DNA of 35,632 nucleotides from Ulvibacter algarum (GTDB lineage Bacteria > Bacteroidota > Bacteroidia > Flavobacteriales > Flavobacteriaceae), in the NCBI GenBank assembly GCA_947488905.1, contig CANLBJ010000005.1:176397-212028 (forward strand), in the 5' to 3' direction. The notes below the pieces were generated by a model, which worked only from the letters and a program-made list of their open reading frames with translations, did not search any database and was not told the origin of the DNA. The translations under genes were made by a program, and so were the position numbers. Below, piece after piece: positions 3,613-10,442 of the stretch; the stretch's first letter is position 1; every line of letters starts with the position of its first letter.

Positions 3613-4212
3613 TTACCCGTGTATAGTCTCAGATTTACTTAAGTCTTTCATTACCTCTGCTTCATAATCTAGTAATTCTTGCCATTTTTGATCTACTTCT
3701 TTACGGTCACCATATTGTCGTGCAAAGCCAAGAAACATAGTGTAGTGGTTAGCTTCGCTAACCATTAACTTGCGGTAAAACTCTGCAAGATCTTTATCTT
3801 CTAGTTCTTCACTCAATAATCTAAAACGTTCACAACTTCTTGCCTCAATTAAAGCGGCATATAATAGTCTATGCACAAGTTGGTTAGTTCTACTTCCTCC
3901 TTTAGGGAAAAATTTTAAAATGGCTAAAACGTATTCATCTTTACGATCTCTTCCCATAACCCAACCATTGGCAATGATTCTATCATGAACCATTTTAAAA
4001 TGGCTTATTTCTTCTTTTACTAGTGCCACCATCTCTTGCACTAGGTCTGTATATTCTGGAAAAGAGACAATGAGTGATATTGCTGTAGAAGTTGCCTTTT
4101 GCTCACAATACGCATGGTCAGTTAAAATGTCTTCAACATTTTTCTCAACAATATTTACCCATCTTGGGTCTGTAGGGAGTTTTAGGCCTAGCATTTTAAT
4201 TTCTTCTGCCAT
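3613..4212 (-). CDS. miaE: tRNA-(ms2io6A)-hydroxylase family (MiaE-like)
   Basis: Ferritin-like di-iron protein of 199 residues matching the MiaE family, which hydroxylates the isopentenyl group of ms2i6A at tRNA position 37. The ligand pattern is complete: E37, the E68-xx-H71 pair (EEISHF), E123 in IEARSCERF, and the E153-xx-H156 pair (SEANHY). The conserved stretch GWVMGRDRKDEYVLAIL also fits. The start is the ATG at 4212, 13 bases after the end of the dnaX tau frame, so it is likely in the same operon. MiaE is best studied in gammaproteobacteria; the role is transferred by family resemblance. If MiaB and MiaA are absent elsewhere in the genome, another tRNA substrate would have to be considered. 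Confidence 0.85.
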   Translation of the reverse strand: MAEEIKMLGLKLPTDPRWVNIVEKNVEDILTDHAYCEQKATSTAISLIVSFPEYTDLVQEMVALVKEEISHFKMVHDRIIANGWVMGRDRKDEYVLAILKFFPKGGSRTNQLVHRLLYAALIEARSCERFRLLSEELEDKDLAEFYRKLMVSEANHYTMFLGFARQYGDRKEVDQKWQELLDYEAEVMKDLSKSETIHG

Positions 4213-4224
4213 GATATTATTTTT

Positions 4225-5001
4225 TTATAAGTCTAGATCAAAGGTTTGCCTTAGTTTGTCTAATGAAGGATTCTTTTCATTTAGTTTTTCAAATTTTTCT
4301 CTTGTAGAATAGGCGTATTTTTTTGCGACTACTTCATTTACTTCAATAGAAAGATCAATGTTATAGTTGTTAAGCTTTTTCTTAATAAAACCAAGCAAAT
4401 CTCCCTGCTCTCGCTCTACTTCGAGCTTAATTGTATTATTTGGGAAAATAAGATGAATTAGTTCTCCCTCAATACGAGGTTCTCCCATTGATAAATGAGA
4501 AAAGAGTATGTGTTTACCGGCTTTTTGCACAAGAGTGGTATATTCTTTCCAGGCAGCAATAAGTGTTTCTTCTTTAAAAGGGTCTGTAGGTAAATTTTGC
4601 GAGTCTGGTTCTTGAGCCTTCAGCTCTTGCTGCATTTTTTGTTTTAATTGAATACTTTTTAATGACAGCCCAGAAACCTTTCGTTCTGGTCTTTTTACAT
4701 CAATAGGCATTCTTGTATTTGCCGTCTTAGGTGTGTCTGAAATAAGAGTACCAGTATTTGCTTGTTCTACATTAGTAGCTAATGGTTCCGTTTTTAAAAT
4801 TTCAGAAGCAGGCTCAGTAACTCTTGTTGTGGTTTCTGAAATGTGCTGCTTTGAGACTTCTACTTCTGTCTCATTTGATTTTGTAGTATTGGTTACAGGG
4901 ATATTTGCATCTAGTCGCTCTACTGACGAAACCATTTTTGTTTTAAAATAGGAGGGAGGTAATACAAAACGCCTTTTAGAACCTAGTTGGCTACTAGACT
5001 T
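4225..5001 (-). CDS. dnaX: DnaX tau-specific C-terminal region (reached by -1 frameshift)
   Basis: This frame continues DnaX after the slippery A-run and encodes about 258 residues: a serine-rich hinge (SSSQLGSKRRFVLPPSYF), a low-complexity linker rich in Thr, Glu and Pro, and a folded C-terminal domain from about FKEETLIAAWKEY to KLRQTFDLDL. That last domain resembles the tau tail that contacts the polymerase alpha subunit. It has no convincing start of its own: the frame can be opened only from an ATG at 5046 buried in the gamma sequence, which gives a nonsensical N-terminus. Joined to the upstream frame by a -1 shift at 5001, the product is about 614 residues, the normal size of bacterial tau. 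It ends 13 bases before the miaE-like gene. Confidence 0.85.
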   Translation of the reverse strand, partial: KSSSQLGSKRRFVLPPSYFKTKMVSSVERLDANIPVTNTTKSNETEVEVSKQHISETTTRVTEPASEILKTEPLATNVEQANTGTLISDTPKTANTRMPIDVKRPERKVSGLSLKSIQLKQKMQQELKAQEPDSQNLPTDPFKEETLIAAWKEYTTLVQKAGKHILFSHLSMGEPRIEGELIHLIFPNNTIKLEVEREQGDLLGFIKKKLNNYNIDLSIEVNEVVAKKYAYSTREKFEKLNEKNPSLDKLRQTFDLDL

Positions 5002-5012
5002 TTTTTTTCCTC
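4980..5012 (-). promoter_or_regulatory. dnaX -1 frameshift / transcriptional slippage signal
   Basis: In mRNA sense, nine consecutive A residues (bases 5008 down to 5000) follow GAGG. Zero-frame codons are GAA AAA AAA AGT, so the heptamer A AAA AAA fits the X XXY YYZ slippery rule. Without slipping, five more codons (S L V A N) lead to TAG at 4985-4983. A -1 slip reads AAG TCT AGT and enters the long tau frame. Directly abutting the run is an 8-bp stem, bases 5000-4993 with 4987-4980 (two G-U pairs) and loop AGCCA; the gamma stop codon lies in its 3' arm. E. coli dnaX uses A AAA AAG with a stem-loop for ribosomal frameshifting; Thermus thermophilus dnaX uses a 9-A run for transcriptional slippage. 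Either could apply here. Confidence 0.75.
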
Positions 5013-6068
5013 TGTAGCAGTTATTGATGCTAATTGCATAAGACAAAGCTCTACTAATAATCTTTGGTTACGACTTGTTCTGTATTTAAGATCACAATCA
5101 TTTGCAATTGCAATACCTTCTATTAAGAAAGATTTATCTGCTTTTTGCGATTGCTCAAAGTACATTTTTTTAACTTGCTCACCTACTTCTAGAAGCGCGA
5201 TGGTCTCTTGGTTTTGGCAAACTAAAAGGTCTCTAAAATGAGATGCGAGTCCCATACAAAAATGATGGCCGTCAAATCCTTTAGATAAAATGTCATTATA
5301 AGCTACTAAGACTTGTGGTATGTTATTAGTCAGTAATAATTCTGTAATCTTAAAATAGTAAGTGTAATCTAGTACATTAAGATTTTGAGTAACTGCTTCT
5401 CTTGTTAGGTTTTTCCCGCTAAAACTTACTACACGATCAAAAATAGAGAGCGCATCACGTAAAGCGCCATCTGCTTTTTGCGCTATAATATGTAAAGCGT
5501 CATCTTCTGCTTCTACATTTTCTGCTTTTGCAACTTCTTTAAGGTGTCCTTTAATATCTTGAACCGTTATCCTTCTAAAGTCAAAAATTTGACATCTAGA
5601 TAGAATGGTAGGAATAATTTTGTGTTTTTCTGTAGTGGCAAGTATAAATATAGCGTGCTTAGGTGGCTCTTCTAGTGTCTTTAAAAATGCATTAAAGGCA
5701 GCAGAAGATAGCATATGTACCTCATCAATTATATATACTTTATACTTTCCGGTTTGTGGTGGTATGCGTACTTGGTCTGTCAAGTTACGTATATCGTCTA
5801 CAGAGTTATTAGAGGCAGCATCTAGTTCAAAAACATTAAAAGCAAAGTCTTCATCTGCTTGTTCTGTACCGTCACTATTAATTTTTTTTGCAAGAATACG
5901 TGCACAACTTGTTTTACCCACACCTCTTGGGCCTGTAAAAAGTAAAGCTTGTGCTAGGTGGTTATTATCTATTGCATTCTCTAGAGTGCTTGTAATAGCC
6001 TGTTGCCCCACCACTTGTTTAAAAGTAGTAGGTCTGTATTTACGTGCCGAAACAATAAATGGTTCCAT
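4983..6068 (-). CDS. dnaX: DNA polymerase III clamp-loader subunit gamma (zero-frame DnaX)
   Basis: AAA+ ATPase of the replication clamp loader, which loads the beta clamp on primed DNA. Domains I-III are present: N-terminal RKYRPTTFKQVVGQQ, Walker A GPRGVGKT (46-53), Walker B DEVHML (from 115), and sensor region SRCQIFDFRR. The start is the ATG at 6068, matching the family N-terminus MEPFIVSARKYRP; an ATG three codons upstream (6077) is possible. The zero frame ends after 361 residues, just past the A9 run, so this is a gamma-like product without the tau tail. The four zinc-binding cysteines found between Walker A and LDAASNN in E. coli and Bacillus are missing; this loop instead reads KKINSDGTEQADEDFAFNVFE. 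Divergent from rnpB, and likely first gene of dnaX-miaE. Confidence 0.93.
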   Translation of the reverse strand: MEPFIVSARKYRPTTFKQVVGQQAITSTLENAIDNNHLAQALLFTGPRGVGKTSCARILAKKINSDGTEQADEDFAFNVFELDAASNNSVDDIRNLTDQVRIPPQTGKYKVYIIDEVHMLSSAAFNAFLKTLEEPPKHAIFILATTEKHKIIPTILSRCQIFDFRRITVQDIKGHLKEVAKAENVEAEDDALHIIAQKADGALRDALSIFDRVVSFSGKNLTREAVTQNLNVLDYTYYFKITELLLTNNIPQVLVAYNDILSKGFDGHHFCMGLASHFRDLLVCQNQETIALLEVGEQVKKMYFEQSQKADKSFLIEGIAIANDCDLKYRTSRNQRLLVELCLMQLASITATEEKKSLVAN

Positions 6069-6154: not shown

Positions 6155-6157
6155 CCT

Positions 6158-6480
6158 AGCAGACCGCCTTATCGCCGTCCGTCTTAGGCGGAAGGAGGAA
6201 AGTCCGAGCACCATAGGGAAGCATAACGGCTAACGGCCGTCATCTTGATTTTAATCTGGATAGGACCAGTGCAACAGAAAGAATGTACAGGTAATGCTGT
6301 AGTGAAACCAGGTAAACTCTATGCGGTGAAATGTCACGTAAACTAGCGCCCCGTTTATTCGGGTAAGGGTTCCCACTCAATGCTAGAGGGTAGGCAGATG
6401 GAGCAATCGAGTAATTGATTGCCTAGATAAATGATAAGGATCCGCCTTGGCGGTTACAGAACTCGGCTTATAGGTCTGCT
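6158..6480 (+). ncRNA. rnpB: RNase P RNA (bacterial type A)
   Basis: Catalytic RNA that removes 5' leaders from precursor tRNAs. The universal core is visible: GAGGAAAGTCCGAGC (about 6194-6208) pairs in P4 with ACAGAACTCGGC near the 3' end (about 6456-6467). The 5' end AGCAGACC (6158-6165) is the exact complement of GGTCTGCT (6473-6480), closing helix P1. Between them are the typical ACAGAAAGAATGTACAG-type and GTGAAACCAGGTAAAC-type conserved stretches. A T-run (6480-6487) follows and probably ends transcription. The last 13 bases overlap, antisense, the end of the minus-strand STAS-like gene. Ends are predicted from P1 pairing and could be off by a few bases. Confidence 0.96.
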
Positions 6481-6860
6481 TTTTTTTCTTTTAATAAATT
6501 TTTCACAAACCCTTCACATTCTTCCATAGTGTAGAACGGTAAGAAAGGGATGTCAAAAAAACCTTTTTGAAAAATTGCTTTTCTATAGTTTGTTTTGTCG
6601 TAACATAAAATAGCTACCCCTTTTAGATTTTTGTTTTCAGATATTTTGTAGAAATTTGAAACATCAACATGATAATTGTTTTTTCTATTAGAAATGTATG
6701 CAAACGGTTTGTCTTTAAACTCTTTTGCAAACAATGTTTTTATCTGAATATATTTATCAAAATCAATAAAAACATCTTCTTTAACTACGCCAATAGCATA
6801 GTTTTCATAGAAAAGATAGTCAATAAAATCAAGGGATATTTTTCTTGGTACGTTATTCAT
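6468..6860 (-). CDS. STAS / SpoIIAA-like small protein (paralog of 23802-24170)
   Basis: Soluble protein of 130 residues with no signal peptide. I cannot name its function. Alternating hydrophobic strands and helices (YAIGVVKEDVFIDFDKYIQIK, GVAILCYD, then a C-terminal helix CEGFVKNLL) resemble the STAS or SpoIIAA-like fold. The central motif FAYISNRKNNYHVD is shared with the gene at 23802-24170 (FFYISNRVNSYSVD), as is the I-P-F-x-x-F-T/Y-x-x-E pattern before the last helix, so the two are paralogs. It is the last gene of a minus-strand operon after rsmD (24-base gap). Its final codons (A D L stop) lie on the opposite strand of the 3' end of rnpB, and its lysine codons are the complement of the rnpB terminator T-run. 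Confidence 0.75.
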   Translation of the reverse strand: MNNVPRKISLDFIDYLFYENYAIGVVKEDVFIDFDKYIQIKTLFAKEFKDKPFAYISNRKNNYHVDVSNFYKISENKNLKGVAILCYDKTNYRKAIFQKGFFDIPFLPFYTMEECEGFVKNLLKEKKADL

Positions 6861-8896: not shown

Positions 8897-9017
8897 TCGT
8901 GAATAGTTTTATTTTTTGTGTTTTATTACGTCTATCGCAAATCTACAATTTTTTTTTGTTCGTAAAAGGTTTAGCCCAAAAAAACATGGCTATCTTTATC
9001 GCTTCTATTTATACCCT

Positions 9018-10442
9018 ATGAATGATAGCTCTTTTTACAGCTTATTAAAATCAGATTTCCCTCACAAGACGACTCTTAAACAGGATATTGCGCTTCAGTT
9101 AATGGCAAAATTTGCTATCAATGAAGATAAAAAGGCGCTTTTTTTATTAAAAGGGTATGCAGGTACTGGTAAAACTACCCTAATAGGAACCTTAGTAAAA
9201 AATCTTTGGCAAGCAAAATTATCTCCTGTACTTATGGCACCCACAGGTAGAGCAGCAAAAGTAATCTCAAACTATTCACAGAAAGAAGCTTTTACTATTC
9301 ACCGTAAAATTTACCAACCTAAATCTAAAAGTGGAGGAGGAGTGACGTTTACGCTGCAGAAAAATAAACACCGAAATACTATATTCATTGTAGATGAAGC
9401 ATCTATGATTCCAGATGTGAATCAAGACGGAAAAATGTTTGATAGTGGCTCATTACTAGATGATTTAATACAATTTGTTTACGGTGGTCATAACTGCAAA
9501 CTACTCTTAATAGGTGATACAGCACAGTTACCACCTATTAAACTTGATGTAAGCCCAGCACTAGAACCACAAACCTTAGAAGTAAGATATCAACTTAATG
9601 TGCAAGAAGTAGAGCTAGATGAAGTTTTGCGTCAAAAATCTGATAGTGGGATATTATTTAATGCTACAGAAATTAGACAATGTTTAGAAGATGGCATTTA
9701 TGAACGCTTTAAGTTTGATATTTCTCAATCTACAGATGTAATGAGACCAGTTGATGGTATGGAGGTTATGGATGCTATTAGTGATGCTTATAATGAAAAT
9801 AGTGATGAAGATGCTGTTTTTATAGTAAGAAGTAACAAACGTGCAAATCTGTATAATCAGAATATTAGAACTAGGGTGTTGTACCAAGAGCAAGAGCTTG
9901 CGGCTGGAGATCGTTTAATGGTAGTAAAAAATAATTATTTCTGGGTTTCTAGCGAAAGCGAAGCAGGCTTTATCGCAAATGGAGATATTATTGAAGTTTT
10001 AGAGATATTTAGATTTGTAGATTTATATGGTTTTCGTTTTGCAGAAGTAAAAGTGCAAATGTCAGATTACCCTAGAATGAAAGCCTTTGAAACCGTTTTG
10101 CTACTAGATACCATAACTGCAGAAACACCTTCACTATCTTACGATGACTCTAATAAACTTTACCAAGAGGTAGCAAAGGATTATGCAGACGAAAAATCTA
10201 AATATAAAAAGTTTCAAGCCATTAAGAAGAACCGCTATTTTAATGGACTACAAGTAAAATTTTCTTATGCCATAACTTGCCATAAATCACAAGGTGGACA
10301 ATGGAACACTGTTTTTGTAGAACAACCTTACTTGCCTAACGGAATGGATAAAGATTATTTAAGATGGTTATATACAGCGGTAACAAGAGCCAAGGATAAA
10401 TTATATCTAATTGGTTTTAAGGATGATTTTTTTGTAAATTAG
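9018..10442 (+). CDS. RecD-like superfamily 1 DNA helicase
   Basis: ATP-dependent 5'-3' type SF1 helicase, about 474 residues. Walker A GYAGTGKTT is at 46-54, the Walker B DEAS at about 126-129, and the motif LIGDTAQLPPI follows. The C-terminal UvrD_C_2-type block has YAITCHKSQGGQW and YTAVTRAKDKLYLIG. I chose the ATG at 9018 (MNDSSFYSLL) because the upstream frame back to 8916 reads through promoter-like AT-rich sequence with no family resemblance. It is shorter than RecD2 (about 700-800 residues) and has no nuclease domain. A role in repair or recombination is likely. First gene of a plus-strand run with DUF4126, kdsB and an acyltransferase; the next gene starts 6 bases after its stop. Confidence 0.9.
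   Translation: MNDSSFYSLLKSDFPHKTTLKQDIALQLMAKFAINEDKKALFLLKGYAGTGKTTLIGTLVKNLWQAKLSPVLMAPTGRAAKVISNYSQKEAFTIHRKIYQPKSKSGGGVTFTLQKNKHRNTIFIVDEASMIPDVNQDGKMFDSGSLLDDLIQFVYGGHNCKLLLIGDTAQLPPIKLDVSPALEPQTLEVRYQLNVQEVELDEVLRQKSDSGILFNATEIRQCLEDGIYERFKFDISQSTDVMRPVDGMEVMDAISDAYNENSDEDAVFIVRSNKRANLYNQNIRTRVLYQEQELAAGDRLMVVKNNYFWVSSESEAGFIANGDIIEVLEIFRFVDLYGFRFAEVKVQMSDYPRMKAFETVLLLDTITAETPSLSYDDSNKLYQEVAKDYADEKSKYKKFQAIKKNRYFNGLQVKFSYAITCHKSQGGQWNTVFVEQPYLPNGMDKDYLRWLYTAVTRAKDKLYLIGFKDDFFVN

Follow-up and report, generated by a model that had tools for sequence, protein, structure and literature searches.

In Escherichia coli, the dnaX signals comprise an in-frame A_AAA_AAG heptamer, an SD-like stimulator ~10 nt upstream, and a 3′ stem-loop, and tau is encoded in frame, as outlined in the portions of the literature drawn on here. 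For dnaX of Thermus thermophilus, transcriptional slippage was reported by Larsen et al. (2000), a work cited here through two later papers (PMC1088944, PMC5009743); it is characterized by transcripts with varying numbers of A and by roughly equal amounts of gamma and tau. Two-ORF dnaX genes were collected by Sharma et al. 2013 (PMC3711429), who listed 17 broken genes from 12 genera and proposed transcriptional slippage; according to the sections available, a poly-A stretch (7–10) was present in 12 of the 17, nine of these being A10. According to the part of Atkins 2016 (PMC5009743) consulted, the two products of dnaX can exchange their roles through a single nucleotide, and the reversed cases are put down to ribosomal frameshifting. 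The same source describes IS630 of Roseiflexus, in which a stem-loop of the nascent RNA located 5′ of the run stimulates slippage.

The stretch of DNA analyzed here, hereafter the window (35,632 nt from Ulvibacter algarum), carries dnaX on its minus strand. A sequence-only reading had proposed that an A9 run splits this gene, with the gamma stop five codons further on and a 614-residue tau in the −1 frame, all of which could be confirmed in the sequence (Table 1). The zero frame extends from ATG 6068 to TAG 4985–4983, crosses the run as GAG GAA AAA AAA AGT CTA GTA GCC AAC TAG, and gives gamma the C-terminus SLVAN. The −1 frame crosses it as AGA GGA AAA AAA AAG TCT and is open to 4225, bringing tau to 614 amino acids in all (by count). 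For the C-terminal 260 amino acids of tau, the sole NCBIfam match was gamma/tau PRK14971 (positions 386–613 of 614, E 1.1e-21), and comparison with Pfam matched 0 families. In the frame table, both non-tau frames of the window close at 0 and 4 codons; because the TAG at 4994–4996 shuts the +1 frame, both end at once. An A9 run as such is not rare, two being found in the window versus 7.2 expected; judged by sequence comparison, it is the conserved position of the run in relatives, not A9 itself, that goes beyond chance. The other A9 of the window (8949–8957, minus strand) is antisense to the opening codons of an ORF with a TTG start (8916–10442, plus strand); this ORF was only mechanically listed, and the run may lie outside coding sequence. 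Regarding the neighborhood of dnaX, a class A RNase P RNA is located divergently upstream (6156–6486, plus strand), and a protein resembling tRNA hydroxylase, which we take to be MiaE-like, is encoded 12 nt after dnaX (3613–4212, minus strand).

Table 1. Features at the dnaX frame junction of the window (coordinates are those of the window).
Feature	Position	Strand	Basis
Gamma form of DnaX, zero-frame ORF, 361 aa	4983..6068	−	NCBIfam dnaX_nterm, E 1.3e-115
A9 run, proposed slippage site	5000..5008	−	sequence
Tau-specific C-terminal part, −1 frame ORF (stop 4227–4225)	4225..5007	−	PRK14971 match
Gamma stop TAG, zero frame	4983..4985	−	sequence
TAG closing the +1 frame directly after the A9 run	4994..4996	−	sequence, frame table
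3′ hairpin of the sequence-only reading; complementarity real, judged chance, outside the mechanism	4980..5000	−	fold, shuffles
Stretch 5′ of the A9 run; abutting hairpin in relatives, weak one here	5009..5043	−	folding

The locus shares traits with each of the dnaX systems described above. As in E. coli, one gene provides for gamma and tau with a frame change at an A-run; however, the zero frame of the window reads GAA AAA AAA AGT, tau is out of frame, and neither of the two E. coli stimulators was found in the comparison of relatives. With Thermus, as described in the citing papers, it shares an A9 late in dnaX at the gamma/tau border and nearby stops in both non-tau frames. In Thermus, however, tau occupies the zero frame, which applies to 195 of the 275 runs considered below, whereas the zero frame of the window encodes gamma. 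The roles are thus reversed relative to both E. coli and Thermus, i.e., tau rather than gamma needs the frame change. The window also resembles the two-ORF genes of Sharma 2013 (a GeneTack cluster), with a zero frame ending as gamma, tau in −1, and a poly-A, here A9. In contrast to that set, as far as it is described in the sections available, the run was followed here in broken and unbroken genes, in all phases and frames, and together with closed frames and a 5′ hairpin.

Junctions of dnaX were sampled from the genus (11), the family (117), named loci (80), and the phylum (113), amounting to 321 records, or 316 after removal of five duplicates; named loci may share species with other records in this set. 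The family sample comprised 120 genomes from 119 genera. Judging from the named loci, the family and the phylum sampled are Flavobacteriaceae and Bacteroidota. A dnaX match was lacking in 1 of 11 genomes of the genus, 1 of 120 of the family, and 2 of 118 of the phylum, and one genome (G222) was left out on account of a contig end. For two short records (L008 and L105), the call of the tau frame is doubtful for lack of sequence. An A-run of 9–13 was present at the junction in 275 of the 316 distinct records, window included (A9 in 37, A10 in 212, A11 in 24, and A13 in 2), leaving 41 without a run. The sequence-only reading had suggested a comparison across relatives for the conservation of run length and frame break: the run proved to be conserved at 116 of 117 family junctions, and the frame break was not. 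Related genomes whose dnaX is uninterrupted and lacks a slippery run were named there as grounds for discarding a programmed site. In the genus and family samples, those near relatives whose dnaX is unbroken still carry the run; some more distant relatives are without it. In the phylum sample, the run occurred in 23 of the 24 distinct records that belong to the class and in 57 of the 86 that do not, and it was absent from the three named Bacteroidaceae loci. On this comparative evidence, the site noted earlier is one instance of what appears to be a much wider element, and the expectation that it is programmed and provides two DnaX forms, gamma and tau, gains support from the conserved position of the run.

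In the 654 kb of the 80 named loci that lie beyond the junction, 25 A9, 3 A10, 6 T9, and 2 T10 were counted, none longer, and a first-order model of these 654 kb predicted 36 A9 and 14 A10. Among records with a GC content of at least 50%, 29 of 50 had the run, and in 17 of these 29 the few lysine codons immediately before the run were more often AAG than AAA. One family of the phylum sample (code f15, e.g., L241–L251 and L310–L325) carried the run in 26 of 26 records (24 A10 and 2 A9) at 45–64% GC; tau follows in −1 in 17 of them and in frame 0 in the other 9. These records possibly represent the Chlorobi cases of Sharma 2013, which is a guess.

The nearest relative, a sister species (G009) with a gamma 96% identical, shares both the A9 and the −1 break, and its surrounding sequence has diverged. 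A third species of the genus (G002) carries A10 in another phase, with tau also in −1, and seven other distinct genus records, among them L008, which runs off its contig, have A10 with tau in frame. Since homopolymers are error-prone and the genus records besides the sister and G002 show A10 with tau in frame, one could suspect a sequencing or assembly error in a dnaX that is really uninterrupted. We consider this very improbable because G009, a separate genome, shows the same A9 and the same frame amid diverged sequence; furthermore, 20 of the 116 family runs have tau outside frame 0. Homopolymer tracts also mutate easily, and the break might accordingly be a random loss of tau at a decayed or phase-variable locus. 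This we hardly credit at all: the genome contains one dnaX match above the family cut-off, and the out-of-frame tau part still looks protein-like, differing from G009 by 0.26, 0.15, and 0.48 at codon positions 1, 2, and 3 (gamma part: 0.07, 0.03, and 0.40). These values indicate that the split state has lasted and that the tau part continues to evolve as protein. Another genus member (G006) showed a dnaX that matches in two overlapping pieces (L014 and L015) near residue 195, upstream of its A10 run, perhaps because the reading frame is broken within the ATPase part or because the assembly is faulty there.

Across the 275 run-bearing records, the run starts at codon phase 1, 2, or 0 in 194, 57, and 24 cases, respectively, and tau continues in frame 0, −1, or +1 in 195, 72, and 8 cases. 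Both non-tau frames are closed within 12 codons in 266 of the 275. For records with tau in frame 0 (duplicates included), the other two frames close at a median of 1 and 4 codons, and both do so within 12 codons in 96%, compared to 37% at control positions of the same genes. On a tree of 140 DnaX sequences (147 placed loci minus seven partial or duplicate ones; a single quick model, no mixture), the least number of switches between tau in frame and tau out of frame was 18, and the minimum for presence of the run was 4. Selection thus appears to act on the run and not on the frame. Among individual records, Flavobacterium sp. YO12 (L024) has A9 with tau in +1, which reflects either the loss of one A or a sequencing error; in L028 and L031, an A10 is followed by tau in −1. 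The only family genome without a run (G028; L234, reversed strand at ~166–179) has a zero frame ending GAA AAG TAA and tau in −1, and may perhaps stand for a lineage gone over to ribosomal shifting beside the stop, or for a decayed site. A protein like that encoded after dnaX in the window follows dnaX in this genome as well.

The sequence directly upstream of the run is prone to fold, with a mean z of −1.36 versus shuffles for the last 30 nt (135 loci). Abutting hairpins were scored if their 3′ arm ended at most 1 nt from the run and their strength was −5 kcal/mol or better. Such hairpins were found in 84 of 116 family records, compared to 4% of control positions (n = 1837) and 11% of synonymous recodings (n = 4640). 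The signal is weaker outside the family: 29 of 70 for the named loci (control positions 7%, synonymous recodings 11%) and 21 of 83 for the phylum sample (12% and 17%); the genus yielded 2 of 11 (2% and 5%). With a gap of up to 3 nt allowed, the hairpin was present in 59 of 73 family records compared to 343 of 1825 recodings (the remainder of the 116 had too little upstream sequence), and in 18 of 171 cases at other A8+ runs of the named loci. Its form varies, as seen for Flagellimonas (CTCCATCA-CTTA-TGATGGAG, then A10), Rufibacter (GACCTCTCTG-TGAA-CGGAGAGGTC, then A10), and Mucilaginibacter (AGCTGCCCC-GCAA-GGGGAGCT, then A10, with one bulge). In the commonest 8-pair register, 77.7% of cells pair, a share that never exceeded 74.0% in 500 column shuffles, and changes on both sides affect 36 cells versus 11–20 in slid registers, relatedness being still contained in both counts; the 27 pair types of this register are no excess over those of slid registers (19–29). 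All 8 pairs are formed in 30 of 75 distinct 30-mers, so that a fixed 8-pair register covers part of the hairpins. A second, smaller folding dip was observed in relatives 80–40 nt upstream of the run (mean z of −1.09 versus shuffles and −0.87 versus synonymous recodings).

With their inverted repeat directly 5′ of the run, the relatives resemble IS630 of Roseiflexus. As described in the source cited, the latter involves U5C5, one-directional slippage, and a transposase gene, whereas the present case concerns an A-run in a replication gene that is, by its anatomy, two-directional. The hairpin of the window itself is weak, with −2.5 to −2.9 kcal/mol (sister species: −3.6), and the run may here act alone, as in Thermus, for this reason.

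Downstream of the run, the sequence-only reading had described an 8-bp stem (5000–4993 with 4987–4980) and argued that its placement without a spacer favors slippage of the RNA polymerase or a hybrid mechanism. The stem exists as a string, with two G–U pairs, and was judged a chance match: folded alone, it forms 6 bp at −4.1 kcal/mol, 48 of 500 sequences obtained by dinucleotide shuffling of these 50 nt contained an 8-pair stem, and its own 8 pairs are reduced to 5 in the sister species and to 1–3 in nine other loci compared. The 101 nt around the run fold about as well as shuffles (z of −0.58, 43 of 200 as good). The argument from its placement had to be given up, as RNA 3′ of the run is still untranscribed when the polymerase crosses it, and this hairpin was rejected as part of the mechanism. 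In the genus and family samples, folding 3′ of the run gave no clear signal (mean z of −0.32, z < −2 in 9 of 126 runs), and the first 40 nt downstream gave a mean z of −0.05 versus shuffles (134 loci).

Regarding the mechanism, we think it quite likely, from the sequence evidence, that the A9 run is a programmed site of transcriptional slippage and that slippage is the main route to gamma and tau. RNA polymerase would add or drop A's over the run and thereby produce dnaX mRNAs of mixed length. Faithful transcripts with nine A's and those with eight would lead to nearby stops and thus to gamma, transcripts with one extra A would encode the 614-amino-acid tau, and the proportion of the two would follow from the slippage. 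As slippage would supply both products, the genomic tau frame could move by one base with neither being lost; in the lineage of this species, one A was probably lost from an A10. In most family members, slippage is probably enhanced by the nascent-RNA hairpin that borders the run on its 5′ side, a role suggested by the anatomy; in the window, this contribution would be weak. Polymerase slippage in two directions would explain the run length, the closure of both other frames, and the drift of the frame together, and the earlier preference for this mechanism is strengthened by run length, phases, and the closed third frame. Some observations do not fit as easily: the run of the window is only A9 with a weak 5′ hairpin of its own, slippery heptamers are present, so that −1 ribosomal shifting could contribute, 41 of the 316 records are without a run, and the family genome without a run (G028) nevertheless has tau in −1.

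One alternative mirrors the situation in E. coli dnaX: tau could be made from the gamma frame by −1 ribosomal frameshifting at A_AAA_AAA. The −1 position of tau, seen in the window as well as in 72 of the 275 runs, would agree with this, as would the heptamer in the window itself and a passage in Atkins 2016 (PMC5009743), according to which tau seems to be frameshift-derived in fewer bacteria and Chlorobium phaeobacteroides has E. coli-like signals. However, the eight runs with tau in +1 are beyond the reach of −1 shifting, which also gives no reason for the third frame being closed within 12 codons in nearly all runs. Runs of 9–13 are longer than the 7 that would do, and the base following phase-1 runs (G in 86, T in 79, and C in 29) does not reveal tuning to A_AAA_AAG. 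As for stimulators, structure 3′ of the run gave no clear signal, and an SD-like motif at −22 to −5 was found in 0 of 127 genus and family runs for the motifs tried. Of 126 distinct genus and family runs, 72 are immediately preceded by GGAG and 2 by GAGG (74 of 126 together), which could be counted in favor of ribosomal shifting; this GGAG is SD-like, but it lies much nearer to the run than E. coli spacing would require, and it is also the 3′ arm of the 5′ hairpin. Ribosomes of Bacteroidia fail to recognize SD sequences according to the part of PMC9976891 consulted, and for yeast, an upstream hairpin is described in the text available of PMC6321510 as able to stimulate +1 ribosomal shifting. 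Taken as the main source of tau, ribosomal frameshifting thus seems improbable to us; the occurrence of all phases, three tau frames, and closed other frames fits slippage of the Thermus type better. A shared origin, with polymerase slippage and ribosomal shifting each making a large share, overlaps in part with our preferred explanation and is a little easier to accept, yet still unlikely. Ribosomal frameshifting on runs of A has long been known, as stated in the consulted part of PMC5009743, and 72 of the 80 runs with tau outside frame 0 have it in −1. Nothing in the present data requires such a combination, however, and the −1 bias could simply arise if insertions are more frequent than deletions.

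Two-ORF dnaX genes with A10 (Sharma 2013, PMC3711429) and the reversal of roles by one base (Atkins 2016, PMC5009743) are already known, as the accessible parts of both papers document. A phylum-wide, frame-indifferent conservation of the run and a 5′ hairpin in dnaX were not found in the literature searched, which comprised open-licence papers. Beyond transcriptional slippage at the window, we lean, with some reserve, toward a broader interpretation for many Bacteroidota: their dnaX would contain a terminator-shaped slippage cassette, consisting of a nascent-RNA hairpin directly followed by A10, and immediate stops in both non-tau frames, that determines the gamma:tau ratio during transcription and cushions the gene against single-base indels, with the frame of an essential gene drifting almost neutrally and the products staying the same. 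If this is true, polymerase slippage would be a common route to the two clamp-loader subunits in a large phylum and not a curiosity of Thermus, and it would account for the split or truncated appearance of dnaX genes. The many natural variants of hairpin plus run would then lend themselves to testing how RNA structure controls slippage, and dnaX would represent an essential gene with a reading frame nearly free to drift.
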